42,708 nt of DNA from a virus: positions 1 to 42,708 of IMG/VR virus record IMGVR_UViG_3300033153_004651; one strand, written 5' to 3'. This document shows positions 9,789 to 42,708 of the stretch, piece by piece (positions within the stretch are counted from its first letter, which is position 1; each line of letters begins with the position of its first letter). The position numbers and the translations under genes were made by a program. The notes beneath the pieces were generated by a model. It worked only from the letters and a program-made list of their open reading frames with translations. It searched no databases and had not been told where the DNA came from.

Positions 9789-10172
9789 CTATTTTTTAAA
9801 TATCTTTTTCGCCAATCTTACAAGTGATTTATTACTGATAACCAGATCCACGGACTGCGCGAAGGTCCCGACGTTCTTTTCATAAGCGCCCGCGTAAATA
9901 ACATTAGATCCAACCCTGACAAAATCAGGATCGTCCGGCGGGCTGACCTCGTCTTCAACTGTTGGCTTTCCGGTTCCCTCGCTTCTGAAATCGCTTTTTT
10001 GTCCGGTCTTTAATCTGAATATAATTGAATTTTTTAATAAACTGCTTATTGCATGAGTCAAAACAACCATCTGATTAACCATAATATGTCCAGCGTCTAC
10101 AAGATAGTTTTGTTGCTTTTTCTCATATTCAGTTAAAACTTTTCCGCTATTCCATTTAACTTTAACTGCCAA
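9789..10172 (-). CDS. HK97 gp10-like head-tail protein
   Basis: The 127-residue protein ends with VRVGSNVIYAGAYEKN and FAQSVDLVISNKSLV, the hallmark of the HK97 gp10 / minor tail-component family (VGSN.xYA..xExG). It overlaps the head-closure gene by 11 bases. The order closure protein, gp10-like, tail terminator, tail tube is conserved in this phage type. Confidence 0.75.
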   Translation of the reverse strand: MAVKVKWNSGKVLTEYEKKQQNYLVDAGHIMVNQMVVLTHAISSLLKNSIIFRLKTGQKSDFRSEGTGKPTVEDEVSPPDDPDFVRVGSNVIYAGAYEKNVGTFAQSVDLVISNKSLVRLAKKIFKK

Positions 10173-10512
10173 TGTTCATTTCCTTTTCTGATCCTGGCGG
10201 CAATAATTTTAATAATAATTCTAAATGATGACCGCGAAAATTTGGATCATGCTCTTTTTTAATTTCATAAACATTATCATTTATTACTACCCTGTCAAGT
10301 AGTTTTATGTCTGTATCGTTTATATAAAGCCTGTAATCAGCGATAACGGTTTTGCCGTCGTCTCCGTATTTCTCATCGCCTTTTAAAAGGTCAATCATTC
10401 CTTTCACGGATGACAACAGATCCCATGTCCGGGACGGCTGAAAGCCAGCTACATTCGTCATTGTTTCCCGGTATATATCGACATCTTGATTGTAATGATC
10501 TTCAATTGACAT
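10162..10512 (-). CDS. Head closure / head-tail adaptor (SPP1 gp16-like)
   Basis: The 116-residue protein opens with a short N-terminal strand (VDIYRETMTNVAG) and has DRVVINDNVYEIKKEHDPNF and HLELLLKLLPP, typical of the small beta-barrel head-tail joining family. Family members close the capsid exit after packaging and receive the tail. Its partner connector normally lies directly upstream; here that partner is 9 kb away (19620-19961), because the glycan cassette lies between them. It overlaps the first cassette gene by 11 bases. Confidence 0.75.
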   Translation of the reverse strand: MSIEDHYNQDVDIYRETMTNVAGFQPSRTWDLLSSVKGMIDLLKGDEKYGDDGKTVIADYRLYINDTDIKLLDRVVINDNVYEIKKEHDPNFRGHHLELLLKLLPPGSEKEMNIGS

Positions 10513-10801
10513 TTAAAAACTCCTTCGGCGTCATTGCTTTGTCATCAACGTAAAAATCGGCAACCGGCTTTCCCAAAATTAAAGTATGATATTTTAAGCT
10601 AATCTCTTTTAATTGTTTTATCGTCAATAATAAATGTTTCCAATGCCTGCCGGTATAGATGATTATTTCATTTTCATTATCATATAATCGATTTATTTTA
10701 TCAACCAATTTTCTGTTTGCGGTTCGTAAATAATAACTCTCACCGTCAAAATCAGAAAATAATATAGTGTCGTCAATGTCAAAACAGTATGTCATTTTCA
10801 T
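10502..10801 (-). CDS. HAD-superfamily phosphatase (capsule-locus type)
   Basis: The 99-residue protein begins with CFDIDDTI, the DxD nucleophile loop of HAD phosphatases, then has the conserved Thr in IIIYTGRHWKH and a final Asp pair in ADFYVDDKA. This compact, cap-less form is common in polysaccharide loci (EcbF/BcbF type). In sialic acid pathways a HAD enzyme removes the 9-phosphate of the sugar, which would fit this neighbourhood, but the substrate here is inferred. It overlaps neighbours on both sides by 11 and 4 bases and is the cassette gene closest to the phage closure gene. Confidence 0.8.
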   Translation of the reverse strand: MKMTYCFDIDDTILFSDFDGESYYLRTANRKLVDKINRLYDNENEIIIYTGRHWKHLLLTIKQLKEISLKYHTLILGKPVADFYVDDKAMTPKEFLNVN

Positions 10802-11001
10802 TCCTTTTTGCTAAAATATAAATCCGGACAGCAAGAAACGCCCTCGGCTGCTTTTAATAAAATACTTTTAAAATTTATATTCGCTTCATCATTTCCCCTC
10901 AATATCTCTTCCATTGCTTCTTTTGTGCTGTTTGCTAAAACATAACTTTCATGATCAATGTCATAACTGCTAATATAATACTGAATAAAATACAATTTCA
11001 T
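10798..11001 (-). CDS. Small protein of unknown function
   Basis: This 67-residue protein has an aromatic start (KLYFIQYYISSYDID) and a Cys pair near the end (SCCPDLYF). ATGA-type four-base overlaps with both neighbours make it almost certainly translated. No family is recognised. It may act with the adjacent phosphatase or NeuB-like synthase, but this is only suggested by position. Confidence 0.65.
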   Translation of the reverse strand: MKLYFIQYYISSYDIDHESYVLANSTKEAMEEILRGNDEANINFKSILLKAAEGVSCCPDLYFSKKE

Positions 11002-11828
11002 TTTCTCAGTGACTCCCTTTTGGATTTCTCACTATTGAATATAACTCTTTTTTTGTTACCAGTCAAGGATTTTTCAATGTCTCGGATAGTTCTGCATAAT
11101 TTTATCATGCCAACCGGATCAATACTTGACTTTTGATCGGATCCCCACATCTCATGATCAAGCGTGACGTGCCGTTCTATCCAATCAAGACCCATTCCGG
11201 CGGCTGTATAAGTTGTTGATAATCCGAACTCATGCCCTGAATATCCGATCTGCTTGTCTGGATATTTTAATTTTAACCAGTTAATATATTTTAAATTCAA
11301 TTCTTTTACGGGGGAAGGGTATGCGCTATTTGTATGGAATATTACATCAGGATCCCCAACTTCAACCGCTTTTTCGATTTCTGCTTCTGTTGACATCCCG
11401 GTTGACATTAAAACAGTATCATAATTCTCGCGACAATATTTCAATAATTCAAGATGTGTTATTAACGCTGACGGTATTTTCACAATATTACAAAACTGTT
11501 TCATAAATGCAGCGCTGTCCAGATCCCAGACGGAGGCGAACCAATCAAGGCGGTTTTGTTTACATACTATATCTATTAAAATATAATCATCAATGCCAAA
11601 TTCTATCTTTTTTTTATAATCCAGATATGACATCTCCCCCCAGGGTGTGTCTTTCGGGATATTCTTTTGACGTTCCGGAACGCAGATATCAGGATTCCGC
11701 TTTTGAAATTTCACATAATCGAAACCAGCAAGACCCGCCATTTTTATCAGCTTTTTTGTAACGTCAATAGATCCGTTATGGTTTATCCCGATCTCAGCAA
11801 TCAGTTTAATTCTGCTCTTTTTGTCCAT
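10998..11828 (-). CDS. neuB: NeuB-type nonulosonic (sialic) acid synthase, short form
   Basis: The 276-residue TIM-barrel protein has all landmark motifs of the NeuB family: AEIGINHNG (11-19), VKFQKR (39-44), MSTGMS (141-146), IGYSGHE (194-200) and ERHVTLD (218-224). The two metal-binding histidines known from NeuB fall at 199 and 220. Family members condense phosphoenolpyruvate with an N-acetyl six-carbon sugar to give a nine-carbon acid such as sialic, legionaminic or pseudaminic acid. Usual NeuB is about 340 residues; this one stops after the barrel and lacks the C-terminal SAF (antifreeze-like) domain. It overlaps the preceding gene by 23 bases with AGGA upstream of the ATG. Precise sugar unknown. 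Confidence 0.9.
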   Translation of the reverse strand: MDKKSRIKLIAEIGINHNGSIDVTKKLIKMAGLAGFDYVKFQKRNPDICVPERQKNIPKDTPWGEMSYLDYKKKIEFGIDDYILIDIVCKQNRLDWFASVWDLDSAAFMKQFCNIVKIPSALITHLELLKYCRENYDTVLMSTGMSTEAEIEKAVEVGDPDVIFHTNSAYPSPVKELNLKYINWLKLKYPDKQIGYSGHEFGLSTTYTAAGMGLDWIERHVTLDHEMWGSDQKSSIDPVGMIKLCRTIRDIEKSLTGNKKRVIFNSEKSKRESLRK

Positions 11829-12495
11829 CGATTATGTCCTTCATTAGCAAGAATGTTTCTTGACTCATTTTAAAATTATCATGTCTCTGATAAAGTCCGT
11901 GTATATATTTTGTATTTGCAATCATGTTATGTCCGTCCTCAGTTTTTCCAACATTTATTCTATTTCCCTGATTCAGTATTTTATCCGGCAAATATCCCGG
12001 TAAATATTCTTTATAATTGTCATGCTCAAATTTTGACTTTTTACTGATAAAAAAATCAAGTCCGGTGATATATAATTCTTTCGGCTGCGCTTTTAGGATG
12101 TCAGTAAATATAAAACAACCCATTAATGCACCGTGACAAATTGCATGTACTTCTTTTATAATGTTTCCAATATGCCTGACGTTTATATGTCGTTGATAAC
12201 TTTCTTGATCTTTTCTGCTTATTCCCTTAAAGCAAAGCCATTCGATCCCCCTGTCTTTAAAATCCTTTACTGGCAGAGGATTCATTTCCCGGGAGAACTG
12301 GACATTGCAATATAATACATTTATTCGCTTTCCGTAATCTTGATAATATAATTCATCATTTAAAAATACGCTTCCATTTGTTTTTATTACAATATCATAA
12401 CTATCAATAAAATCTCCGAACTCACGGCCTTTAATGTTCGGACATCCACCGACAAAAATTACTTTCTTATCTCTTAAATAATCATAATATTTCAT
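11806..12495 (-). CDS. GT29-like sialyltransferase candidate
   Basis: The 229-residue protein starts with VIFVGGCPNIKGREFGDFID and SYDIVIKTN, the same spacing as the nucleotide-sugar-binding L motif of GT29 sialyltransferases (VGxx..LxGxxxGxxID..D.V.R.N). A second motif, CHGALMGCFIFTDIL followed by ELYITGLDFF, matches the later conserved block also seen in the two other DUF115-like proteins of this cassette. Such enzymes transfer sialic acid from CMP-sugar. No membrane anchor is present, so it would work in the cytoplasm. Donor and acceptor are inferred from the NeuB and NeuA neighbours. Confidence 0.7.
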   Translation of the reverse strand: MKYYDYLRDKKVIFVGGCPNIKGREFGDFIDSYDIVIKTNGSVFLNDELYYQDYGKRINVLYCNVQFSREMNPLPVKDFKDRGIEWLCFKGISRKDQESYQRHINVRHIGNIIKEVHAICHGALMGCFIFTDILKAQPKELYITGLDFFISKKSKFEHDNYKEYLPGYLPDKILNQGNRINVGKTEDGHNMIANTKYIHGLYQRHDNFKMSQETFLLMKDIIDGQKEQN

Positions 12496-13514
12496 AATTC
12501 AAGTTCACACCGTTTTATATAAACGTCATCTTCGGAGTCATGTCCCATATAATTACAATGAATATAAATATATAGTTTCCCATCTTTTCTAACTATTCCC
12601 TGTGATGAATGGATAAAGTTTTTCTTTTTATCCTCAATAATGATCGGGATGTCGATAAAAAATTCATGTTTGACGTTCCATGAGACCCCGTCAAAACTCT
12701 CTACAAACCTCAGACATGCTTTTGTATCGGTGTAATAGGGCAATATACCTAAAAACCTACCATCAATATTCAGAAAGCATGGAAAATAATAATTCTCTGC
12801 ATTCTGGTCAAATTCAGGATTCATTTTTATGTTATTAAATTCTGACCAGAAACGTAAATCTTTAGATGTTGAATACTGAATAAATCTATTCCCTTTTTGT
12901 ATATTATTTCTTACATATAAAATATACTTTTCGCCGTCATGCATACAGGAGATATGCCCGTCAAATTCTGTTGACTTCCATTGCAAGGCTGAATTAAAAC
13001 CAGACTGATCAACATTTACTATCGGATCATCATAAACAGGCTTAAAATCCACGCCGTCGGAACTCCTGAATAAATAAAGTCCGTCTGAATAATCAAGCAG
13101 CCATTTTTCATTGATCAATCTGTCATGTGCTTTTTTGTATCTGTCCTCATTTCTTTCGTATTCACGTCTATATTTTTTTTGAAATAATATTTTAAATTTA
13201 TCGAATGTATCTGCATCATGCCAGGTTTTATTGTTTTTCCAGGAGTCCATGCCTCCAATCCCGTATATATTACCGTCAATTCCTTTAAATACTGAGAAAT
13301 TATGCGAGAGGCAATTTTCGCTATGAATAAGGATCGCGTCGTCAAAATTCACACCGTCTTTGCTTTTATACGCATTTGTATATAAAAATTTTCCCTTATG
13401 TAGTACATAATGATTTTCGTATAATACTATATCGTCGCCGTTCTGTATTACTGAATAATAACAGACTTGTCTTTTCTCGGATTTTAAAACTATTTCTTTT
13501 TCAATTATTTTCAT
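12492..13514 (-). CDS. Beta-propeller glycosidase-like protein
   Basis: This 340-residue protein has no signal peptide. It repeats a blade-like pattern of aspartate-box-like turns: YKSKDGVNFD, FRSSDGVDFK, YSTSKDLRFW and VESFDGVSWN, with FVES/YSTS strands between. This is the layout of five-bladed propellers of the GH43/GH32 clan and related carbohydrate-binding proteins. Candidate catalytic acids cannot be assigned with confidence by eye. It overlaps the sialyltransferase-like gene by four bases. It may trim or bind a sugar chain made by the cassette, but hydrolase activity is unproven. Confidence 0.6.
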   Translation of the reverse strand: MKIIEKEIVLKSEKRQVCYYSVIQNGDDIVLYENHYVLHKGKFLYTNAYKSKDGVNFDDAILIHSENCLSHNFSVFKGIDGNIYGIGGMDSWKNNKTWHDADTFDKFKILFQKKYRREYERNEDRYKKAHDRLINEKWLLDYSDGLYLFRSSDGVDFKPVYDDPIVNVDQSGFNSALQWKSTEFDGHISCMHDGEKYILYVRNNIQKGNRFIQYSTSKDLRFWSEFNNIKMNPEFDQNAENYYFPCFLNIDGRFLGILPYYTDTKACLRFVESFDGVSWNVKHEFFIDIPIIIEDKKKNFIHSSQGIVRKDGKLYIYIHCNYMGHDSEDDVYIKRCELEL

Positions 13515-14113
13515 TACACACCCTTTACTCGAAACACCATCAGATCATCCCCGATCGTTTTCCAATACTGCATTTTCGTTAATCTGACAATCTTTTTTAT
13601 CCATCCCATTTTATCCATAATAGTTAAATGTAAATTACTAATCTTTTTATATTTTCTGGATACGGATTTTAGCTCGTCTAAAAATTCAGTATTCCCTTCG
13701 ATAGTATAACATATTTTTAGAAATAGAAATTTTTTTGCAACCCTGGAAATTTCCTTTAGGGCGTGATCTATGTCATCAGGCGCAAGATGTTCCAGGACAT
13801 CACAGGAAAAAACAGCGTCAAAGAAATTATCCTTAAAAGGTAGATCCATTATATTGGCCTCAATGCAATTCCTGATCCCGTATTTCTCGGCTGCATATCT
13901 GATCGCGATAGAAGAGACATCGATTCCGTAACCTGTTTTATGGTTTTTCTGAAATTCTCTGACCGAAAAACCGTTAGCGCAGCCAACGTCAAGCACTTTA
14001 TTAAAACTGAATTCAGCCTTTATAATATCCTTTACAAAACGACGCCCGTGATTTTTCCCTTTTGCGTGATATCCTATTTCATAAAGTGATTCATATAATC
14101 GTTGATAATTCAT
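13514..14113 (-). CDS. Class I SAM-dependent methyltransferase
   Basis: The 199-residue protein has motif I VLDVGCANG (about 37-45), an acidic ribose-binding residue in GYGIDVSS, then IMDLPFKDNFFDAVFSCDVLEHL, the usual motif III/IV of small-molecule and sugar methyltransferases. It is a clear relative of the shortened gene at 15987-16346: both have an FKDxxFDAVxxxDVLE.L block. The substrate is unknown; context suggests O- or N-methylation of a sugar. It overlaps the propeller gene by one base. Confidence 0.85.
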   Translation of the reverse strand: MNYQRLYESLYEIGYHAKGKNHGRRFVKDIIKAEFSFNKVLDVGCANGFSVREFQKNHKTGYGIDVSSIAIRYAAEKYGIRNCIEANIMDLPFKDNFFDAVFSCDVLEHLAPDDIDHALKEISRVAKKFLFLKICYTIEGNTEFLDELKSVSRKYKKISNLHLTIMDKMGWIKKIVRLTKMQYWKTIGDDLMVFRVKGV

Positions 14114-14711
14114 CTATTTCCCACACTCCCATATAATAACCCGGTTTTCCTTTGTCATTTATTGTGTGAACAGGTTCCGGAAAGTTAAACGGATCGATCC
14201 TCAGATTGCGCGGGTTTAATATCAGGCAGCGCGTTTCCGGATTTTCTTCCACACTGGATGAGGACGCCATTAAATATGTCGATCCGCTTTTTATTGCATT
14301 TTCTATAATCTGTAAACAGTCTTTTAATTGTAAGTGTGTAAAAACATCCCTGATAAAAATTAAATCAACTTTTTGCAAATCGTATTCAACTATATTTGCA
14401 TTTATAAATGTTTTCTCAGGAAAATTCTTTTTATTCTTTTTTATCAATTCCGGGACAATATCGATCCCCGTATATTCGATCCCCGTCCAGTCAAGCTTTG
14501 ACAACCAGTGATGATCGGCACAGCCGCAATCAAGCACACTTTTTATTTCAAATATTTCAAATATATCCCTCACTCTCTGATATGACATCCCGAAACCGCC
14601 CTTCCAGATTGCGCGGCCTGGGAGACGCTTCGGCTTTGTCCTTTTGTATAATTTATACCATTGCTTTTCGAGAGATTTTCCTTTTGCTTCCTCTTCCCAA
14701 GTTTTTTCCAT
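14091..14711 (-). CDS. Class I SAM-dependent methyltransferase
   Basis: The 206-residue protein has a lysine-rich N-terminal helix region, motif I SVLDCGCADHHWLSKLDW, then YTGIDIVPELI, and VDLIFIRDVFTHLQLKDC as motif IV. The F/H-rich RDVFTHL form is common in methyltransferases of polysaccharide and phage glycan loci. It is distinct in sequence from the other four in the cassette. The 23-base overlap with the next gene suggests translational coupling. Substrate unknown. Confidence 0.8.
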   Translation of the reverse strand: MEKTWEEEAKGKSLEKQWYKLYKRTKPKRLPGRAIWKGGFGMSYQRVRDIFEIFEIKSVLDCGCADHHWLSKLDWTGIEYTGIDIVPELIKKNKKNFPEKTFINANIVEYDLQKVDLIFIRDVFTHLQLKDCLQIIENAIKSGSTYLMASSSSVEENPETRCLILNPRNLRIDPFNFPEPVHTINDKGKPGYYMGVWEIDELSTII

Positions 14712-15286
14712 TATTCAACCTCTATCCTTTTTATCCAACTTGAATCTCTAAACGTCTTATCAGGTTTAAAAAATTCGTCAACTGCTTTCTTGACGCCTGG
14801 AAAATGGCGTCCCGTGTAATCATGTCCAGCTATAAAAGAATTTTTTTTAACCTTCGGCAGCCATAATTGAATGTCTTCTCTGACGCCACTATAATTATGA
14901 ATAGCGTCAATATAAATAAAATCAATACTGTATTCCGCAAAATGATAAATAGCTTTTTCACTTTTCACCTTCAGTTTTTGAATGTTCGGATATTTTTTGC
15001 ATAATTTATTAAATTGAGCCTCGACCTGATCCATCGGGATCCGGAACGAAGCGCCGTCATTGTCATCATATCCATTGACCCAGGGATCGATCGCAAATAC
15101 TGTTTTAAAATTCTTCGCGAATATTTCTGTTGAATCGCCGACATACGATCCGACCTCGACCATTATCATATCAGAACAGTCGCCGATATAATCAATTAGA
15201 TCTTGCAATCCTATTTTTGCAAAGCGGGCGTTTCGTATGCTTATATCCAAAAATTCCACCATTTTCTTTTCATATATAAAAAACAT
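14711..15286 (-). CDS. Methyltransf_24-type SAM methyltransferase
   Basis: This protein of 183-191 residues has MVEVGSYVGDSTEIFAK (motif I), FAIDPW, and IDFIYIDAIHNYSGVREDI then FIAGHDYTGRHFPGV, the pattern of the Methyltransf_24 / cephalosporin-hydroxylase-like sugar methyltransferases. Asp and His residues in IDAIH and GHDY are typical of metal-dependent members. The first ATG has no good ribosome site; the ATG at 15262 (MVEFLDI) is an equally likely start and reduces the overlap with the small Cys-rich gene. Substrate unknown, presumably a sugar of the cassette product. Confidence 0.8.
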   Translation of the reverse strand: MFFIYEKKMVEFLDISIRNARFAKIGLQDLIDYIGDCSDMIMVEVGSYVGDSTEIFAKNFKTVFAIDPWVNGYDDNDGASFRIPMDQVEAQFNKLCKKYPNIQKLKVKSEKAIYHFAEYSIDFIYIDAIHNYSGVREDIQLWLPKVKKNSFIAGHDYTGRHFPGVKKAVDEFFKPDKTFRDSSWIKRIEVE

Positions 15287-15441
15287 TTTTCATTTATTAT
15301 TGTATCGTTTGGCTTTATAACGTTCACGCTTTTAGTGCAATCATATCTACAAACAGGAGATGATTTATCATTCCAATGTCTAGCTATTCCGTGACTGCAA
15401 TCTTTGCAATGTTCTTGTTTAATACTTATATTTAAATGCAT
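15241..15441 (-). CDS. Small Cys-rich (zinc-ribbon-like) protein
   Basis: The 66-residue product has two close Cys pairs, CKDC (12-15) and CRYDC near 31-35, plus His residues between them, as in a small zinc-binding knuckle. The ATG has a good site (AAAAAGGATTTAG) inside the end of the sulfotransferase gene, giving the same 23-base overlap seen at other junctions here. It overlaps the following methyltransferase by 22-46 bases depending on the start used. Function unknown; the ribosome site and Cys pattern argue that it is real. Confidence 0.5.
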   Translation of the reverse strand: MHLNISIKQEHCKDCSHGIARHWNDKSSPVCRYDCTKSVNVIKPNDTIINEKCFLYMKRKWWNFWI

Positions 15442-16009
15442 CTAAATCCTTTTTAAATCGTTTATTCATAATCTTTATTAATTCGTCATTATAATAATCT
15501 TTATAATTTCCGTAATCCTGTTTTTTATATACATCTAATTTTATATATTTAAACTTTAATATTTCACAGATTCTTTTCCATTCATTTTCGAGGTTCTCAA
15601 AGCGTCCGATATAATTCGGCTTTATTCCCTTGCTGGTAGTAATAAAGTCAACTTGATTTTCCCTGAATGAGTATGCCTGTAATTCAAGCGGCTGATCGGA
15701 ATAAACCTGGATATGGTTTTTAATAAAATTATCAAATGTTCCAGGATTGTTTATTTCCTTTTTTATTTTAGCCTCTTGTAATATCCAGAAATACCAGGAA
15801 ACCATACGAGAAAAAGGATTTCTAATAAATGTAAATTTAAAATATTCCTTGTAAATATTCGATCCAAGTCTCCTACAGGCCGTTGACGCTTTTAAATGAA
15901 CTTGTTTATGCGCTCCGTTAAAATGAGTAACCAGGTGTTTATAAATTGGCGTCCCGCCCGTCTTCGGTATGTGTAGAAATATATATTTATGTTTTTCCGA
16001 TAGTGTCAT
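15419..16009 (-). CDS. PAPS-dependent carbohydrate sulfotransferase (Sulfotransfer_2 type)
   Basis: The 196-residue protein begins with KYIFLHIPKTGGTPIYKHL (residues about 8-26), the 5'-phosphosulfate-binding loop, and has FIRNPFSRMVSWY (about 60-72), the 3'-phosphate-binding Arg/Ser motif. Both are diagnostic for Golgi-type carbohydrate sulfotransferases and bacterial relatives. The reaction moves sulfate from PAPS to a sugar hydroxyl. No transmembrane anchor is present. Bacterial sulfotransferases of this group modify capsular or secreted glycans; here the acceptor is probably the glycan made by the cassette. PAPS would come from the host. Confidence 0.88.
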   Translation of the reverse strand: MTLSEKHKYIFLHIPKTGGTPIYKHLVTHFNGAHKQVHLKASTACRRLGSNIYKEYFKFTFIRNPFSRMVSWYFWILQEAKIKKEINNPGTFDNFIKNHIQVYSDQPLELQAYSFRENQVDFITTSKGIKPNYIGRFENLENEWKRICEILKFKYIKLDVYKKQDYGNYKDYYNDELIKIMNKRFKKDLDAFKYKY

Positions 16010-16346
16010 CTCTTCCGTCCCGAGTAAATATCAATAATTCCCCCTCTCGCTTATGCCTGAGAAATTTCCCAAATGCTGAAATCTGAATCATCCACCAATC
16101 AAGCGGCTTTGCAGTCTTTCCGCTTTCCGATATTGTTAAAAATAAATACTTCCTTGCGATTCTGGTAATTTCGCTTAACGCTTGCGCTACATCTTCAATC
16201 TTTAAATTCTCCAATACATCCATGCATTGCACAGCATCAAAGGAATCATCCTTATATTTTAAATCCAGTATAGATCCGATACAGCCCCCGATATCCAGTA
16301 TAGAGAAGAAGTCATAATTTTTAACTAAATAATCGCTATATTTCAT
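15987..16346 (-). pseudogene. Degenerate SAM methyltransferase (internal deletion)
   Basis: The 119-residue frame has a motif I remnant FSILDIGGCIGS (14-25) joined directly to the post-II block ILDLKYKDDSFDAV and the motif IV region CMDVLENL. Compared with the relative at 13514-14113 about 45 residues are missing between these blocks, including the acidic ribose-binding residue, so SAM binding is doubtful. A 12-base repeat (TCTATACTGGAT) occurs at both sides of the fusion point. The reading frame and its overlaps with both neighbours (23 and 4 bases) are kept, so a remnant role cannot be excluded. Its first residues resemble the start of the GT29-like gene. Confidence 0.6.
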
Positions 16347-16993
16347 AATAAAAACTCTTCTAACATTCCGTGTTTAATTTCTGGATAGTGAACTTTCAGC
16401 ATTGCCAGGACTGAAAGCCAGCCTCCCAGATAATTTAATTGTGCTAAATAAATTTTTCCGAGGAGCCGCTCACAGTCAACTTTTTTACCGTATTTTGTAC
16501 CACCATCAAAACCAATAAATTTTATATTCTTATATCCCATCAGTCCAGCCAAAAAATAAACCGCCCCGCTGACAGACGACGAATGATGATATAATCTATA
16601 CTCTGGAATTTTTGGGAGTTCATCACTAATCATATATTGAAAAGACCGATTACGACTAACAAAATAATATGAATTATCACTATTTAAAATATTGTTATAT
16701 AATTCAGGCTCGTTTCTGGCCTTCGTACTCCATAGATTTTTTGTTCCAAGCAATATATATTTTGCTCTATTATAAGTTTCTCTCGATCTGAGTATTGGCC
16801 GGATGTGAAAAAATAGCGAATATGTCGGCCTGTCTACTATTCTGCAAGCATCGTTTATTGTTAATATATCATATTTTTTCTGAGAGTTTAAAGCTTTTAA
16901 ATTTAATTTGTCTACACTCGGACCCTTTCCGATTACAACAATGTTATTGTTTTTTGATGGCGGTATGTCCTGTATAGTTTTTAATAATTTCAT
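16343..16993 (-). CDS. DUF115/GT29-like glycosyltransferase candidate
   Basis: The 216-residue protein starts with a Rossmann-like site, NIVVIGKGPSVDKLNL, then DILTINDACRI, and later HHSSSVSGAVYFLAG followed by NIKFIGFDGG. These blocks match, in order and spacing, those of the proteins at 11806 and 18970, so all three belong to one fold group (DUF115 / sialyltransferase-like). It lacks signal peptide and membrane spans. Members of this group are known or suspected nucleotide-sugar-dependent transferases. Donor unknown. Confidence 0.65.
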   Translation of the reverse strand: MKLLKTIQDIPPSKNNNIVVIGKGPSVDKLNLKALNSQKKYDILTINDACRIVDRPTYSLFFHIRPILRSRETYNRAKYILLGTKNLWSTKARNEPELYNNILNSDNSYYFVSRNRSFQYMISDELPKIPEYRLYHHSSSVSGAVYFLAGLMGYKNIKFIGFDGGTKYGKKVDCERLLGKIYLAQLNYLGGWLSVLAMLKVHYPEIKHGMLEEFLL

Positions 16994-17604
16994 TTTACAT
17001 TATCACAGATTAAAACCCTTTTATTATTGTTTGCCGTTGTATCTGTTAATTTAAAATTTGTTAAACGTCTCATTATATAATCCTTATTTGTCAGGCAAGC
17101 TCCCCCATAACCTTCGTCATTTTCGTAAGCATCATTAAACCTGGTGATCTCTGCATACTTAAAAATTAGACATACTTTTTTAACCTTACTATTATTTATA
17201 TCACTCAGAAAATCAATAAAATATTTTTCATCTGGAAAATGCTGTATACAGGCAATCGAGACAAAAACATCGATGTCAAATTGAGAGTAATCCTTTGGCG
17301 CTAAATACAATCTAATTTTATAACCGAGTAAAGTTAATCTCGCAAAATCAAGAGATCTTTGCGCGATGTCAATTCCGACATATTTTTTTAAACCGTAATT
17401 CTCAAATAAATATAATCCCAGATAACCACCGCCGATCCCATAGTCAATAATAATCTTGTCTTTCCAGTCGATATGATCTATAAATATTTTTCGTAAACTG
17501 GCCGCGTATGCTTTATTTTTAGGATCTGACAAATTGCGATTCGTTGTTAAATGAGCATAAGCAACGTGACACCCCTCCCAGTATTCCCTTACTTTATTTT
17601 TCAT
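16990..17604 (-). CDS. Class I SAM-dependent methyltransferase
   Basis: The 204-residue protein has motif I KIIIDYGIGGGYLGLYLF, then YVGIDIAQRSLDFAR (acidic Asp at the ribose site), and FVSIACIQHFPDEKYF as motif IV. The N-terminal WEGCHVAYAHLTT is a helix before the fold. No metal or radical motif is seen. It overlaps the GT8 gene by 11 bases and the DUF115-like gene by 4. Substrate unknown; it is the fifth methyltransferase frame in the cassette. Confidence 0.8.
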   Translation of the reverse strand: MKNKVREYWEGCHVAYAHLTTNRNLSDPKNKAYAASLRKIFIDHIDWKDKIIIDYGIGGGYLGLYLFENYGLKKYVGIDIAQRSLDFARLTLLGYKIRLYLAPKDYSQFDIDVFVSIACIQHFPDEKYFIDFLSDINNSKVKKVCLIFKYAEITRFNDAYENDEGYGGACLTNKDYIMRRLTNFKLTDTTANNNKRVLICDNVK

Positions 17605-18346
17605 ACCACTTAAACCAGATCCTTTCTATAGTATCAAATCCCTTTTCGTTTTCTGGAATATGCAGATTCTTTCTGCTGGCCTCTTCTATCTCATACGGTT
17701 TTAATGCGATATAATGCCAAACTTTAACATCTTTTACGAGGTCCTGATATCTGGCAGATTTAAAAATACGCTTCTCCATATTGTAGCGCTTGTCAAGATA
17801 TTTTATCCCACTTCCAAAATACTGATTTATCGTTTTCTGATCGGGCATGGAGTGACCACGGCGGGCAATCCTCATCAGTCCAGCATAAGTTTCTTTTTCA
17901 ATGTGCTTTTTATTTATTACAAACAGTCCTGAGTTTATCGATCTGACTAATTGATCTTTATTTCTGTTATACGCCTTACACGCTGCGAACGCATGCTCGC
18001 AATCAAAAACAGGCTTCAGATCGGCAAGCACAATCATATCCATATCTATTGATATTACTCGATCATATTCGTACTGACAGAAAGCATCAAGTTTATAATA
18101 AGTAACTCTCAATTTTTCATGAGTCCTTTTCATAGGAACGGCTTTATAATTTTTTTTATTAGGCCATTTAAAAATTATATTCGGATATAATTCTATCATT
18201 GCCTTTTTTGATATGTCGGAAAGTCCACAGTCAATAATAACAAAGTCATGATCGAACCACGGATTGAAGTGCAGAAAAGATTTAATAAAAGCTCTGAATA
18301 ATTTTATGTGATTATCATTCAGAATTGTAAACATGCATATTTTCAT
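17594..18346 (-). CDS. Glycosyltransferase family 8-type enzyme
   Basis: The 250-residue protein opens with the strand MKICMFTILNDNHIKLF, and has RVISIDMDMIVLADL (DxD metal and nucleotide-sugar site near 100), INSGLFVINKKHI (about 136-148), MPDQKTINQYF and VWHYIALKPY, the conserved blocks of GT8 glycogenin/galactosyl-type transferases. These use UDP-sugars with retention of configuration. No membrane segment is seen, so the enzyme is likely cytoplasmic. It could build the acceptor chain to which the sialic-acid-like sugar is added. Confidence 0.85.
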   Translation of the reverse strand: MKICMFTILNDNHIKLFRAFIKSFLHFNPWFDHDFVIIDCGLSDISKKAMIELYPNIIFKWPNKKNYKAVPMKRTHEKLRVTYYKLDAFCQYEYDRVISIDMDMIVLADLKPVFDCEHAFAACKAYNRNKDQLVRSINSGLFVINKKHIEKETYAGLMRIARRGHSMPDQKTINQYFGSGIKYLDKRYNMEKRIFKSARYQDLVKDVKVWHYIALKPYEIEEASRKNLHIPENEKGFDTIERIWFKWYEK

Positions 18347-18355
18347 TTAATAACC

Positions 18356-18973
18356 CTATTTAATAATTGTTATAAATTTATCATAATCTTCCTTTGTGTC
18401 AATGTCTATTTTATCTTCTATATGAAAAAAACCAGTATCATCATTGTAAAGATTATTATTAAGATTTTTATACTCACCGGCGAACGCTCCTGATATAAAA
18501 TGGCTGATTTGAAATACTTTCGGGTAGTCCTGACGTCGATATAAATTATGACTTACAATCTGCCTTCCGTCTGAATATACACACATATAAGGATGTGTCT
18601 TTGGAACCTTTGCGCATACCATAGATTTGTTATCAACTATTCTAAAAAGCTCCTCGAAGTCAGAAACGTCAGTCCATGTCCGTTCCGGATATGTCAACGA
18701 TAGATTTAAAATAAACTCGTCTTTGCTGATCTCGTATTCATCGATCGCATCAAGAATTACATCCCGGAGATTTGCCTCATCTGTGCAGAGTGACGGCTTC
18801 CGGAATATACAATTAAATTTATATTCCCTCGCCTGTTCTAAAATATTATCATCGTTAGTTGTTACAATCACATAAGCATCAGGCGGAATCATCCGCGCCG
18901 TATATTTAAAAAGTACTCTATTTTTAAGGGGGAATCCCTTTGATCCCTTGCGTGCTGGTATTATTATTTTCAT
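18356..18973 (-). CDS. neuA: CMP-nonulosonate (sialic acid) cytidylyltransferase
   Basis: The 205-residue protein starts with IIIPARKGSKGFPLKN (3-17), the CTP-binding signature of NeuA/CMP-sialate synthetases, then VTTNDDNILEQAREY, FRKPSLCTDEAN, and ends with HIEDKIDIDTKEDYDKF, where the Asp pair binds metal. Reaction: CTP plus a nine-carbon acid gives CMP-sugar and pyrophosphate. NeuA is normally about 220-230 residues, and the region after the signature is shorter here. With the NeuB-type gene in the same operon this completes synthesis and activation of the sugar; the related KdsB enzymes are less similar. Confidence 0.9.
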   Translation of the reverse strand: MKIIIPARKGSKGFPLKNRVLFKYTARMIPPDAYVIVTTNDDNILEQAREYKFNCIFRKPSLCTDEANLRDVILDAIDEYEISKDEFILNLSLTYPERTWTDVSDFEELFRIVDNKSMVCAKVPKTHPYMCVYSDGRQIVSHNLYRRQDYPKVFQISHFISGAFAGEYKNLNNNLYNDDTGFFHIEDKIDIDTKEDYDKFITIIK

Positions 18974-19623
18974 TTAAATATTTCCCCGTATGGTTTAAAT
19001 TTAAATATTTTTAAATTACTCTTCGGATTACAATTCCAGACGCGCTGCTTCCATGCTTCGAACATCATAAATTTTCTAACCTTTTTAAACATTTTGCTTT
19101 CTTCAACTCTTTTGTGATGCTCATAGTCTCCGTTAAAATGGATCCGCCCGCTGCCCTGTTCATAATAATAATCGTAACCTAAAAGAAAAATCTTTTTAAA
19201 TCCCATCTGGATCGCAAGGTTTAAAGCGATCAGGCCTGTACTTGTCGAGTGAAATAATCCTACCCTGGGATTCTCGACCGGCTCGGAACGATTCATTTTA
19301 AATATATGCAAGTTATCAATATTAAAATTCTCGTACTTTCCGGGGTCCTTATATCCGGACTCTTCGCCCGCGAAAACCATTCCTTTATAATTCTTGAAAT
19401 CAAATTTGCTTTTACTTAAAAATATTTTATCTGCAAAAACTGTTGCCGTGCTTTCAGGGTATGCCTCGACACTATGGTTGACCGTTAGCGTAAATTCATT
19501 ATCAAGGCTGGAAAGATCGAATCCATCCAGCGACGTGCCGCCTCCGATAATAAAACAACCTTTCCGATTGTTTTCCGCTGCCCAATTTTTAATCCCGAGA
19601 AATCGTTTAATCTCATTATTCAT
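18970..19623 (-). CDS. DUF115/GT29-like glycosyltransferase candidate
   Basis: The 217-residue protein has CFIIGGGTSLDGFDLSSL (23-40) and EFTLTVNHS, then HSTSTGLIALNLAIQMG with KIFLLGYDYY, the same block order as the proteins at 11806 and 16343. This is the DUF115/sialyltransferase-like group found in phages and in polysaccharide loci. The later GRIHFNGDYEHHK may take part in acceptor binding. It is the cassette gene next to the phage connector gene and overlaps it by four bases. Confidence 0.65.
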   Translation of the reverse strand: MNNEIKRFLGIKNWAAENNRKGCFIIGGGTSLDGFDLSSLDNEFTLTVNHSVEAYPESTATVFADKIFLSKSKFDFKNYKGMVFAGEESGYKDPGKYENFNIDNLHIFKMNRSEPVENPRVGLFHSTSTGLIALNLAIQMGFKKIFLLGYDYYYEQGSGRIHFNGDYEHHKRVEESKMFKKVRKFMMFEAWKQRVWNCNPKSNLKIFKFKPYGEIFK

Positions 19624-19961
19624 CGTATCCCTTGAAATCTCTCTATCCTGCTTACTATGCTTTTTGGATATCCGTCAATTATCTGTTCATCTCTATTATA
19701 AGAATATGTCCCGATCTTCTCTGACTTCATACCAGGTGATAAGTTCGCTAATTGATAACCGATCATCTGTGCCGCTACAACCTGGGAGTTCTCCGGATAG
19801 TCAACTACTGGATCGTCGTTGCTGTCCGTATTCCACGCAAGGCCGCGAATCAATAGATAATCATTTTCAACCGCTGGAATTAGCATATTTATTTGCGCAT
19901 CCTTTGCGGTTCCGGTAATTCCCAGGAATGTTTTTGCATTATCAAGTGTTATTATTGACAT
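19620..19961 (-). CDS. Head-tail connector (gp6/gp15-like)
   Basis: The 113-residue protein begins with SIITLDNAKTFLGITGTAKDAQINMLI, a helix pattern characteristic of the gp6/SPP1 gp15 connector (LExxKxxLgItgtxxDxxI); the piece quoted continues past one helix. It forms the ring under the portal. In relatives the closure protein follows at once; here the glycan cassette is inserted between this gene and 10162-10512. The start of this gene overlaps the stop of the previous one by a single base. Confidence 0.75.
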   Translation of the reverse strand: MSIITLDNAKTFLGITGTAKDAQINMLIPAVENDYLLIRGLAWNTDSNDDPVVDYPENSQVVAAQMIGYQLANLSPGMKSEKIGTYSYNRDEQIIDGYPKSIVSRIERFQGIR

Positions 19962-20167
19962 TATATTATATCCTCAATCGAGTTATTCATCTCTTCAAGT
20001 GCTTTATTTCTTTCTACATACCTAACTGTTGAAGATATATAGTTTTTTACAAAAGTCTCTAAATCCTCAACATCAACACTATCTTTATTAAGTAGTATTT
20101 TAAATGCTTCCTTCAATCGACCAACTTTCTCCTCTGGTATTGTAATACTTAAAATTATATCAGCCAT
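19961..20167 (-). CDS. Small helical protein of head region
   Basis: This 68-residue protein has a short strand MADIILSITIPEEKVGRLKE and helical remainder (VEDLETFVKNYISSTVR). One-base overlaps with both neighbours. Small proteins of this type with the start ADIxLSITIPxE occur next to head fibre or connector genes in many phages. Precise function unknown. Confidence 0.65.
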   Translation of the reverse strand: MADIILSITIPEEKVGRLKEAFKILLNKDSVDVEDLETFVKNYISSTVRYVERNKALEEMNNSIEDII

Positions 20168-21822
20168 TATGTCGCGCCTCCCAATTTATCGGCAGTATAT
20201 TCGATCGCCATTCCCTCAACTACAAATTCACCTGCTATTTCATTGACTGTCGCTGGTATTCGTCTCACCCTTATTGCAAGTGCATCACCCACCGAAGCAG
20301 CTATTGCAGACGTGTCTAGTGTAAATGCAATTTTAAATGATTTATATTGTGCGGCGGTTCCGGTATCGGTTTCTACAGGATAATCATGTGTCGATGTAGG
20401 TACAACTTCATTATTTGACATATCGCATTTTTCAACGCTGACCTGTAAATTGAATTTTTTCCCAGTATTTGCAGTATCCAACCAGCCTCCGATATAAATT
20501 GTCAGGTCAGATGATCCATCCCAATCAGGAGGCAGACACTTACAAGCAAAAAGCTCTTCGTCATCATTGTTATAAACTGGTAAACTAAAGCCAAAAAAGA
20601 CACCCCTGCTTACAAGCGTTGGAGCGCCCTGGCCGGTAATTCTTGCAAAATTAAAAGTAAATGAATCAACGATCTTGACTTTTGCAGTTCCAGCAAGTGT
20701 CAACTCGCCATCGGGGGCAAAGTTCGCATAATTTGTTGGTACACCTCCGGCACTATCGCCAATCCTGATCGCACCGTCAGCAAACAAATCCAAAAAAGTA
20801 TTTGCCTGCGAATAGACACCGATTGCGCTATCCCTTAAATAAAGTTTTTCGCCATTCTGTATTAAAATATCATCATTAAATTGGAAATAATCAGAACCGG
20901 CTATCCATGAGAATAATCCGTTATTACTGGACAACGTAAGAAAGTTCATACTTGTATTTGCGTTAATTCCAGTATTACCAAACCTGAATACATTCTGACC
21001 TACAACTGCATACTCAAACACGGGAACGCCAACGGCCGCCAGTGTCTGTAAAAACCCGGTCGATGCATTAAAATACATTCCCAGGCCGTCCACGCCCAGG
21101 CCGTCGTCATATCTAAACGCATAAAAAGATTGTAATGCTTTTTGAACTAAACCGTCAGTGCTTGTAAATGGAAACTTCGTTGCATTTCTTGAAGCATCCA
21201 ATAAAAAAACATCAGAGTGATCTGAACCGTCGCTGGTTCGGTGTGTATTATTTAACCCTACATCCGAATGATCCTTTCCGTCACTCCCTCTGTGAGTTGT
21301 ATTTAATCCAATCGCTGTAACATTGGCTGCGATGTTTGATGTATTTGTTACTACATCTGCATGATTTTTTCCGTCGCTTCCTCTGTGGGTGGTATTCAAG
21401 ACAACATCACTATGATTTTTGCCGTCACTCGTTCGATGGACAGTGTTTGCAGCGACATTCGTTTCCTTACTAATTGCATTCGTTAAAGTTGATTTCTTTT
21501 TATTATTACTATTTGCGGAATCTTCAATTAAAAATAAATCATTCCCGACAGGAATTGCTTTATTTGTTAAAGCGTTTATTTCTCCGGCGACGTCTTTGTG
21601 AAATGCATTTATAACATCGGGTGCGGCTAACCATGTACGCCCATCGGAATAATAAGGGCCTGCTGATTTGCGATTTATTAACCATACGCCGCTTGAATTT
21701 TCGACCATCCATATCTGATCTGTGACAGTACCGGCAGCCGGTAGGTTTGCGAAAACATCGACCTGACCTTTTATAATAATGTCGTCTTCTGTTATTTCCT
21801 GACCGCCGCCAATTCCATGCAT
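20167..21822 (-). CDS. Probable head fibre / structural fibre protein with THRxSDG repeats
   Basis: The 551-residue protein has a beta N-terminus (1-105), a repeated 15-residue segment NTTHRGSDGKxHSDV four times at residues 126-140, 143-157, 174-188 and 191-205, then a shaft and a C-terminal beta domain (about 390-551, ending AIEYTADKLGGAT). The repeats and trimer-like layout are typical of phage fibre proteins. The gene lies in the head module between capsid and connector, not near the tail tip, so a head fibre or collar whisker is more likely than a tail fibre. A glycan target role for such an exposed fibre is attractive but unproven. Confidence 0.6.
   Translation of the reverse strand: MHGIGGGQEITEDDIIIKGQVDVFANLPAAGTVTDQIWMVENSSGVWLINRKSAGPYYSDGRTWLAAPDVINAFHKDVAGEINALTNKAIPVGNDLFLIEDSANSNNKKKSTLTNAISKETNVAANTVHRTSDGKNHSDVVLNTTHRGSDGKNHADVVTNTSNIAANVTAIGLNTTHRGSDGKDHSDVGLNNTHRTSDGSDHSDVFLLDASRNATKFPFTSTDGLVQKALQSFYAFRYDDGLGVDGLGMYFNASTGFLQTLAAVGVPVFEYAVVGQNVFRFGNTGINANTSMNFLTLSSNNGLFSWIAGSDYFQFNDDILIQNGEKLYLRDSAIGVYSQANTFLDLFADGAIRIGDSAGGVPTNYANFAPDGELTLAGTAKVKIVDSFTFNFARITGQGAPTLVSRGVFFGFSLPVYNNDDEELFACKCLPPDWDGSSDLTIYIGGWLDTANTGKKFNLQVSVEKCDMSNNEVVPTSTHDYPVETDTGTAAQYKSFKIAFTLDTSAIAASVGDALAIRVRRIPATVNEIAGEFVVEGMAIEYTADKLGGAT
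21208..21447 (-). repeat. Four protein-level repeats (NTTHRxSDGKxHSDV) in head fibre gene
   Basis: The four copies are 15 residues each; copies 1-2 and 3-4 are spaced 17 residues, with a 14-residue insert between the pairs (TNTSNIAANVTAIG-like). The codons differ in detail, so the repeat is conserved at protein level more than at DNA level. Confidence 0.85.
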
Positions 21823-22420: not shown

Positions 22421-22449
22421 AAAATTAAAGGCGGGCTTTTACACCCGCC
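22421..22449 (-). terminator. Intrinsic terminator directly after the major capsid gene
   Basis: On the minus strand GGCGGG and CCCGCC form a 6-bp GC stem with an eight-base loop, followed by TTTAATTTT. It lies 8 bases after the capsid stop, so many capsid transcripts should end here and part read through into the genes beyond. The opposite strand also shows a T run (ATTTTTAC), so it may be bidirectional. Confidence 0.75.
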
Positions 22450-41686: not shown

Positions 41687-42708
41687 ACGAATTCACATAC
41701 CTAAAAGATCCGGACTTCAAAGAGGGGCGGCGATACGTTGGAGCCTCAGACATTCCAACGCTTGCGCTGCTTAATCTTAAATACGATCAATCGCCCCTGA
41801 CGCTATGGGAGCAGAAAACAGGACGTGCCGATCCGTTTATGGGTAATGAGCGAACTCGCGCCGGCAAGGAATTAGAACCGCTTGTATTGAAGTGGGGACT
41901 TGAAGAGCTTGATCAGACACAGCCAGTTTTTCATCCAGCAAAATATTTTAGTCATTTTTTGTTATCACGGTATAAAATGGAAAATGAATGTTTTAAATTC
42001 AGATCCCTCACCGAGGCAGTACACCCAGATCGTCCTTATTTAAAAGCACATGCTGACTTAATAGAAACTGTGGAACCATTTATAATGGAAGCAAAAACAA
42101 CCGGATATTTCGGAGCTAAAAGAACAGATAATATTAACCTGGGATATGATAAAGACGACCTGTCAGCCAACGGGATCCCGTCAAGTGTATATTTACAGAT
42201 TCAAGCTCAAATGTTATGTTATGGAATCGACACGGTTTATGTATCTGTAATGATTGACACTGGGCAGCATCGATTATACGGGCCGATATCAGCGCATAAG
42301 AAAACGCAAGAGAAAATATTGGCACTTGCGGAACGCTTCTGGTTTCACATTGAAAAAGACAAACCCCCGAAGCCTGAGATCTGGAAGGATGTAATGAAAT
42401 TAAATCCTATTCTTAAAAAGGATTCCCAGACAACGATCGGCGGACCTGACCTTGACAAGATTGTCGAGATGATAGAAAAAACGAAGAAACTCAGAGGCAA
42501 GCAAAAAAGCATTAAAAAGGAAATGGACGATATTAAAAATGCAATCGGTTTAATGATTGGAAAAAATAATTACTTAATGTCAGCAAGAGGCGACAAGCTT
42601 GCAACGGCTTTTGATGTAACACGGTATTCATTAAAGGATTATAAGAAAATGAATAAAAGAAGATTGACAAGAATGTTGAATGATGGTTTTGTGAATAAAA
42701 CAACTTAC
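41683..42708 (+). CDS. YqaJ/lambda-type exonuclease, N-terminal part (continues at left end)
   Basis: The frame starts at ATG 41683 after AGGAGCTTATTAA and is open to the window edge, then closes at 130-132, 347 residues in total. It has VGASDIPTL (N-terminal helix and Asp), KAHADLIETV (catalytic Asp), IMEAKTTGYFG (ExK) and YLQIQAQMLCYG (Gln helix), the PD-(D/E)xK set of YqaJ/lambda exo. It degrades one strand of duplex DNA to produce tails for RecT. Its C-terminus (residues 295-347) is Lys-rich and coiled. The two genes share the same leader. Confidence 0.92.
   Translation, partial: MNEFTYLKDPDFKEGRRYVGASDIPTLALLNLKYDQSPLTLWEQKTGRADPFMGNERTRAGKELEPLVLKWGLEELDQTQPVFHPAKYFSHFLLSRYKMENECFKFRSLTEAVHPDRPYLKAHADLIETVEPFIMEAKTTGYFGAKRTDNINLGYDKDDLSANGIPSSVYLQIQAQMLCYGIDTVYVSVMIDTGQHRLYGPISAHKKTQEKILALAERFWFHIEKDKPPKPEIWKDVMKLNPILKKDSQTTIGGPDLDKIVEMIEKTKKLRGKQKSIKKEMDDIKNAIGLMIGKNNYLMSARGDKLATAFDVTRYSLKDYKKMNKRRLTRMLNDGFVNKTTY
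42595..42708. repeat. Right copy of terminal direct repeat (circular overlap)
   Basis: Identical to bases 1-114; both copies lie inside the exonuclease gene. It closes the circle of 42,594 bp. See the left-copy entry. Confidence 0.95.

Follow-up and report, generated by a model that had tools for sequence, protein, structure and literature searches.

Maf enzymes O-glycosylate flagellin directly on Ser/Thr residues with nonulosonic (sialic-acid-like) acids (PMC11339370), and flagellin glycosylation by soluble enzymes takes place in the cytoplasm (PMC7591256). In the Maf systems of Magnetospirillum and Clostridium botulinum, the sugar donor is made by NeuB- and NeuA-type enzymes, and the genes lie near those of a self-assembling structure (PMC11339370). 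Here, we describe a comparable gene cassette in the phage record IMGVR_UViG_3300033153_004651, analysed as one stretch of 42,708 bases (the window). The cassette lies on the minus strand at 10502-19623, between two neck genes, and can, judging from its enzyme families, make a nonulosonic sugar and charge it with cytidine monophosphate (CMP). It shares with the Maf systems the type of donor synthesis, the fold of the Maf central domain, solubility and its position. Unlike them, it is phage-coded, has a transferase of 217 aa without the N- and C-terminal domains, and carries extra GT29-like, GT8, sulfotransferase and methyltransferase genes. We place slightly better than even confidence in the reading that these genes encode a soluble, Maf-like pathway which glycosylates a virion protein in the cytoplasm, before the particle is assembled or while this is under way.

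Other described systems share parts of this set. Mycobacteriophage glycosyltransferases modify virion proteins, namely capsid and tail tube (Freeman et al. 2023, as cited in PMC12363180 and PMC12619734). These transferases are phage-coded as well and are described there as acting on virion proteins; the passages concerned in the two citing articles name single transferases and do not mention the cassette's families. The cassette, in contrast, also encodes sugar synthesis, charging and sialyltransferase-fold enzymes. Chloroviruses and giant viruses carry nucleotide-sugar enzymes together with transferases and are at least partly host-independent, but they are eukaryotic viruses with N-linked glycans on Vp54 (PMC9614988). 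In Bacteroides thetaiotaomicron, the Kdn (ketodeoxynonulosonic acid) pathway runs from mannose 6-phosphate in three steps, by a synthase, a phosphatase and a CMP-transferase (PMC6200933). The phage trio appears to follow this 9-phosphate logic, which would explain the absence of genes making N-acetylmannosamine or legionaminic/pseudaminic acid precursors; the phage HAD protein, unlike the Kdn phosphatase, has its closest match among EcbF/BcbF-type capsule phosphatases.

Among isolate phages, such genes are scarce. Across 50,697 isolate records, NeuB was matched in three, the CMP transferase in one, the sulfotransferase in three, DUF115c in 12 and GT29a in none. Two isolates have related arrangements. 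Tetraselmis viridis virus S20 (NC_020840.1, L079, 5314-10897), catalogued as a green-alga virus, has a glycosylation cluster between its head genes and the head closure gene Hc1, which includes a pair of sialyltransferase-like genes, additional glycosyltransferase genes and two for methyltransferases; Caulobacter phage CcrColossus has a sialyltransferase-like gene right after its tail genes, followed by sugar-transferase and methyltransferase genes. Both resemble the cassette in placing DUF115/sialyltransferase-like genes, glycosyltransferases and methyltransferases beside neck or tail genes, but their glycosyltransferases belong to other families and no NeuB or CMP-transferase match was found in either record. 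These examples suggest that neck and tail operons of unrelated phages repeatedly carry glycosylation genes. A literature search, which covered subscription journals only in part, turned up no description of a nonulosonate cassette in a phage. Virion glycosylation as such has been described before; a nonulosonic acid made by the phage itself, together with Maf/GT29-type transferases in a neck operon, appears to be a new form of it. To our knowledge, chloroviruses and giant viruses have no nonulosonate set.

An earlier note, made from the sequence of the window alone, had placed sixteen tightly packed genes at these coordinates within a virion operon, and this is confirmed. The cassette consists of 14 open reading frames (ORFs) of at least 99 aa and two small ones (67 and 66 aa), with a single 9-bp gap and overlaps at all other junctions. 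It is bounded by coding overlaps too: 4 bp between the SPP1 gp15-like adaptor gene upstream and DUF115c, and 11 bp between the HAD gene and the gp16-like head closure gene downstream (Table 1). Judged by this layout, the cassette is predicted to be a translationally coupled chain within the virion operon, which gene content assigns to the putative late class. A chance arrangement is excluded, because the same gene order recurs in other phages. NeuB, the CMP transferase, GT8 and the sulfotransferase, all named in the earlier note, exceed their Pfam cut-offs, as do the methyltransferase domains in four of the five frames, MT3 lying slightly below. Under the cut-offs are GT29 (1.1e-3), DUF115/MptE (3e-8 and 4e-5), GH43 (9e-4) and HAD (1.3e-3); structure supports GT29a and one of the DUF115 proteins, and a PDB profile match supports the HAD phosphatase, as proposed, while the GH43 assignment gains no such support. 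Families and folds bear out a phage-coded set that could assemble and activate an acidic sugar, transfer it, methylate it and probably add sulfate. As the note had also stated, membrane anchors are missing: no cassette protein has a transmembrane-like segment (a 19-aa segment above 1.6 on the Kyte-Doolittle scale), and no flippase, polymerase, lipid-linked or anchored transferase is found among the cassette genes.

Table 1. Cassette genes and flanking neck genes, listed from the upstream to the downstream flank (SAM, S-adenosylmethionine; PAPS, 3'-phosphoadenosine-5'-phosphosulfate)
Feature	Class	Position	Strand	Supporting match or remark
gp15-like head-tail adaptor	upstream flank	19620..19961	-	Phage_connect_1 4.7e-8; phrog_1161 1.3e-6
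DUF115c, Maf/GT42-like small transferase	core	18970..19623	-	phrog_4603 'alpha-2,3-sialyltransferase' 4.7e-17; structure match
CMPT, NeuA-like CMP-nonulosonate transferase	core	18356..18973	-	CTP_transf_3 1e-5; 6ifd 1.7e-17
GT8-family glycosyltransferase	core	17594..18346	-	PF01501 3.4e-9
MT3, SAM methyltransferase	accessory	16990..17604	-	Methyltransf_25 1.4e-5, slightly under cut-off
DUF115b, second DUF115-like transferase	accessory	16343..16993	-	MptE-like/DUF115 3.2e-8
Truncated methyltransferase frame, 119 aa		15987..16346	-	Methyltransf_11 positions 49-89 of 95 only
PAPS-type sulfotransferase	accessory	15419..16009	-	Sulfotransfer_2 (PF03567) 5.3e-15; phrog_3347 8e-20
66-aa ORF, no assigned family		15241..15441	-	overlaps both neighbours
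MT24, SAM methyltransferase	core	14711..15286	-	PF13578 2.8e-14
MT2, SAM methyltransferase	accessory	14091..14711	-	Methyltransf_31 5e-11; decayed in relatives
MT1, SAM methyltransferase		13514..14113	-	Methyltransf_11 2.4e-20
GH43-like protein, hydrolase role unsupported	accessory	12492..13514	-	GH43 9.2e-4, below cut-off
GT29a, sialyltransferase-fold transferase	core	11806..12495	-	predicted structure matches
NeuB-family synthase without SAF domain	core	10998..11828	-	PF03102 7.6e-57
67-aa ORF, no assigned family		10798..11001	-	4-bp overlap each side
Small HAD phosphatase	core	10502..10801	-	PDB 9iqw profile 3.9e-18
gp16-like head closure protein	downstream flank	10162..10512	-	phrog_1059 1.7e-12; phrog_25 Hc1 4e-7

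The enzymes for sugar synthesis and activation match known families. The TIM-barrel domain of NeuB scores 193 bits against a PF03102 cut-off of 22.1 and matches the profiles of solved NeuB/PseI/SpsE proteins at 1e-31 to 7e-40 (SiaC 2wqp 1e-31; 6ncs 7e-40). Aligned with SiaC, the motifs KFQ and K-I-x-S and two metal-type His residues are invariant in 12 phage sequences, and we take them to have catalytic and metal-binding roles. The CMP transferase exceeds its CTP_transf_3 cut-off (25.9 against 22.6 bits), lies nearer to NeuA than to ketodeoxyoctonate transferases (1e-4) when profiles are compared with the PDB, and has a YRRQDY motif that is invariant among four homologues. The HAD protein carries DxDxT and conserved K/D motifs, its best PDB match being a capsule biosynthesis protein. 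As the cassette has no precursor-making genes, the start compound would be a host sugar phosphate.

The transferases were approached through structure. AlphaFold (AF2) models were built for DUF115c and GT29a and compared by Foldseek and VIA. The DUF115c model (predicted local distance difference test score, pLDDT, 84) finds its best solved match in Maf 5mu5 (Z 14.3, 184 aa aligned, root-mean-square deviation 3.4 A), followed by HPPK (Z 11.7, an unrelated fold), mammalian ST3Gal (11.0) and CstI/II (9-10); by Foldseek, it matches CstII at 1.5e-4. The GT29a model (pLDDT 86) has ST8SiaIII as its best Foldseek match (5e-7), and all 31 of its matches below 1e-3 are sialyltransferases; by VIA, ST6Gal1 reaches Z 12.8 and the top 24 rows are all GT29/GT42 sialyltransferases. 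According to these models, both proteins belong to the sialyltransferase fold, DUF115c being closest to Maf and GT29a to GT29/GT42. The folds are those of CMP-nonulosonate users, a likeness that does not prove activity, and a predicted CMP-nonulosonate-type enzyme adjoins. The earlier note had proposed three GT29/DUF115-like transferases and a structure search; that search places two of them among sialyltransferase-type enzymes, while by sequence all three stay below the Pfam cut-offs: GT29a with 18.9 against 23 bits (PF00777), DUF115c with 23.7 against 34.6 and DUF115b with 34.0 against 34.6 (both PF01973). DUF115b weakly matches the flagellin modification protein PseD and has homologues in the relatives L052, L053 and L055.

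The cassette recurs in a group of relatives defined by IMG/VR scans with NeuB, GT29a, capsid and tube profiles and by one genome scan. The NeuB scan yielded 40 loci, at least 32 of them distinct at 95% nucleotide identity; the CMP transferase is present in 15 of these 32, HAD in 21 and both in 11. The rarity claimed in the earlier note thus applies to isolates and has to be qualified for IMG/VR. Seven lineages have the cassette at the adaptor/head-closure site (the window, L002, L004, L005, L047, L058 and L069), L058 showing the upstream junction only and L004 the downstream one; L002 is the same phage as L003 and nearly identical to L059. These neck-site cassettes have in common the order DUF115c-CMPT-GT8-MT24-GT29a-NeuB-HAD, with pairwise capsid identity down to 36% and cassette proteins at 36-73%. 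On a second backbone, that of L028, L046, L049 and, probably, L045, the core keeps its order (L049 has gaps) and directly precedes a conserved tube-sized gene, itself before the tape measure gene; its tube role is assigned by position, PHROGs giving no match. The tail-tube profile yielded five loci, each of them with cassette genes. The L028 GT29a is 56% identical to the window copy, as close as any copy on the same backbone, which implies that the module moved between backbones or that the backbones recombined. Larger phages (L051-L055) have reshuffled gene sets.

Within this group, a stable core can be told from a variable part. The core comprises DUF115c, CMPT, GT8 (in all ten cassettes compared for it), MT24, GT29a, NeuB and mostly HAD, and its ORFs run without interruption in every phage compared, with identities of 28-73%. 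The sulfotransferase, GH43-like, MT1, MT2, MT3 and DUF115b genes vary. The sulfotransferase is present at the neck site in the window and L005 cassettes, and MT2 is reduced to end pieces in L002, L028 and L045. MT24 has ISIRN and GHDY motifs that are invariant across ten phages, and the top NCBIfam match of MT1, under its cut-off, is a pseudaminic-acid-associated methylase model. Four of the five methyltransferase frames in the earlier note are intact; the fifth is only the C-terminal half of a domain. The propeller glycosidase of that note does not stand: the GH43-like protein scores 19.1 against a cut-off of 32.2 bits, has no PDB profile match, and shares no invariant Glu as catalytic acid across six homologues (relatives in L028, L045, L046, L051 and L069). 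The near-identical L002 and L059 differ in three cassette codons, all amino-acid-changing and too few for a ratio of nonsynonymous to synonymous rates. Sugar making and transfer are thus kept while tailoring changes, as would be expected under shifting selection on surface chemistry.

Taken together, a pathway can be proposed. NeuB would join phosphoenolpyruvate to a sugar supplied by the host (perhaps a hexose 6-phosphate), after which the HAD phosphatase would remove a phosphate and the NeuA-like enzyme would attach CMP to the nonulosonic acid. At least one of DUF115c, GT29a and perhaps DUF115b would then transfer the sugar, either straight to Ser/Thr residues of a virion protein or to a short glycan begun by GT8, and MT24 and the other methyltransferases, in the window phage also the sulfotransferase, would modify the product. 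The modification may serve particle masking, charge or adhesion. Virion decoration, already proposed in the earlier note, is favoured because the neck-gene position, solubility and fold fit; it is strengthened, short of proof, by the Maf-like fold, the shared site in seven lineages and the lack of anchors. Its basis is enzyme families, folds, gene order, conservation, position and missing membrane anchors, from which reactions, donor, acceptor and purpose are inferred, and our confidence goes no higher because this step from families to function is itself inference. A wider proposal, to which we give a little less than an even chance, is that an uncultivated phage group has a self-contained Maf-like O-glycosylation system in the cytoplasm, produces the nonulosonic acid for it and covers its virions with a sialic-acid-type glycan that is methylated and in some cases sulfated, the fixed core and changing tailoring allowing rapid surface change. 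Were this so, bacterial viruses would produce sialic-acid-like sugars and present them on their particles, a trait usually tied to cells. The glycan genes in phage neck operons would then have a testable explanation, protein glyco-engineering would gain a source of small Maf/GT29-like enzymes, and the behaviour of phage particles in mucus, in sludge or facing host defences could be approached. Related transferases in phages of cultured hosts (Caulobacter) make the idea testable.

Several observations weigh against virion decoration. The NeuB profile match ends at position 277 of 329, where the antifreeze-like SAF domain would begin, in the window and all aligned phage relatives. The score against the N-acetylneuraminate synthase equivalog TIGR03569 (NnaB) is 183 bits with a cut-off of 399.65, in part because the SAF domain is missing; without this domain of classical sialic acid synthases, NeuB does not fix the exact sugar. 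The solved 'sialic acid synthetase' 6ncs (290 aa) is equally short and ends before SAF, so the short form does not exclude function. DUF115c covers only residues 264-511 of the 632-aa Maf chain, both flanking Maf domains being absent, and no HAD gene was found in L069 or L049. A search by Ser/Thr content found no shared or Ser/Thr-rich acceptor stretch, and a fibre-like 551-aa protein (20167-21822) was rejected as the common acceptor, as it is absent in L002 and L058. The late-operon position can also have other causes.

The main rival is a change of the host surface, in which the CMP-nonulosonate and the methyl and sulfate groups are put on host lipopolysaccharide, capsule or flagellin, blocking superinfection or helping release. 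NeuB, EcbF/BcbF-like HAD proteins and sulfotransferases are typical of surface polysaccharide loci, and GT29/GT42 enzymes mostly use oligosaccharide acceptors. We nevertheless regard this as rather unlikely, given a cassette without membrane anchor, flippase, polymerase or lipid-linked transferase, its neck-gene placement and hence presumed late expression, and early proteins among which a partial scan matched no integrase or repressor. The phage might instead re-tailor an existing host glycan on flagellin, S-layer, pili or particles, its core transferases being branch enzymes for that glycan. The host must indeed supply the GT8 donor, PAPS, SAM and the start sugar, some relatives can do without HAD and accessory genes vary; yet donor synthesis and activation are both phage-borne and conserved over lineages, which makes this improbable.

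Least probable in our view is a mobile cargo island with no specific virion role, retained since insertions are tolerated at the neck site. In nine of nine phages compared (the window and eight relatives), the cassette has a higher AT content than its flanks (in the window 34.5% GC against 39.6% in the structural genes), and the MT2 remnants and the truncated methyltransferase look like decaying parts. In L060/L061, whose capsid is 48% identical, the neck site is empty, with adaptor, a 106-aa ORF, Neck1 and tail terminator in succession. A cargo island is hard to reconcile, however, with seven to eight core genes that stay intact and ordered while the capsid diverges to 36%.

Some features of the relatives can be added. 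In L028, L045, L046 and L049, DUF115c has an N-terminal extension of ~70 aa that is absent from the SPP1-type copies; Pfam and isolate phage searches gave nothing useful for it, and it might be an acceptor- or virion-binding part. The L028 (6584-8062) and L045 (7922-9385) cassettes contain a longer second NeuB-type protein, in L028 fused to a cupin domain. A polysaccharide pyruvyl transferase is encoded in the sugar cluster of a related phage (L052:11456-12493).

The window itself covers a whole phage genome (42,594 bp, assembled as a circle), because 114 bp are identical at both ends (1-114 and 42595-42708) and a RecE-like ORF at the right end reads correctly through the joined ends; the record is classed as linear although its ends repeat exactly. 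The genes are those expected of an SPP1-type siphophage, with small and large terminase, portal (SPP1-type, Pfam 1.2e-66), minor head protein, scaffold, capsid, adaptor, head closure and tape measure. The major capsid protein matches phrog_247 (5.7e-78) and is at most 37% identical to isolate phages among the matches listed. The fibre-like protein, encoded between the capsid and adaptor genes, has THRxSDGKxHSDV repeats and is variable or missing in relatives. A strong terminator-like hairpin (22430-22449) directly follows the capsid gene, and promoter-like sites in the window are no more numerous than in shuffled sequence.

An archaeal host was considered and rejected. The sole GT29a genome match, in the Thermoplasmatales metagenome-assembled genome CP070724.1, is a scaffolding artefact: the phage (L069/L071/L072, about 510749-552615) is flanked on either side by a gap of 100 N, 141 bp at its two ends overlap exactly, and its capsid gene occurs in one of 80 searched genomes of the class, so that a circular phage contig must have been misplaced in an archaeal scaffold. 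A complete circular phage contig therefore sits inside a public 'Thermoplasmatales archaeon' chromosome. Its DnaB-helicase-like and bacterial single-stranded DNA-binding-like proteins, as read by eye, argue for a probable bacterial host. The large terminase of this phage (G001:C1:547319-549469) has an unusually long frame of 732 aa, the middle of which resembles an intein end by eye.

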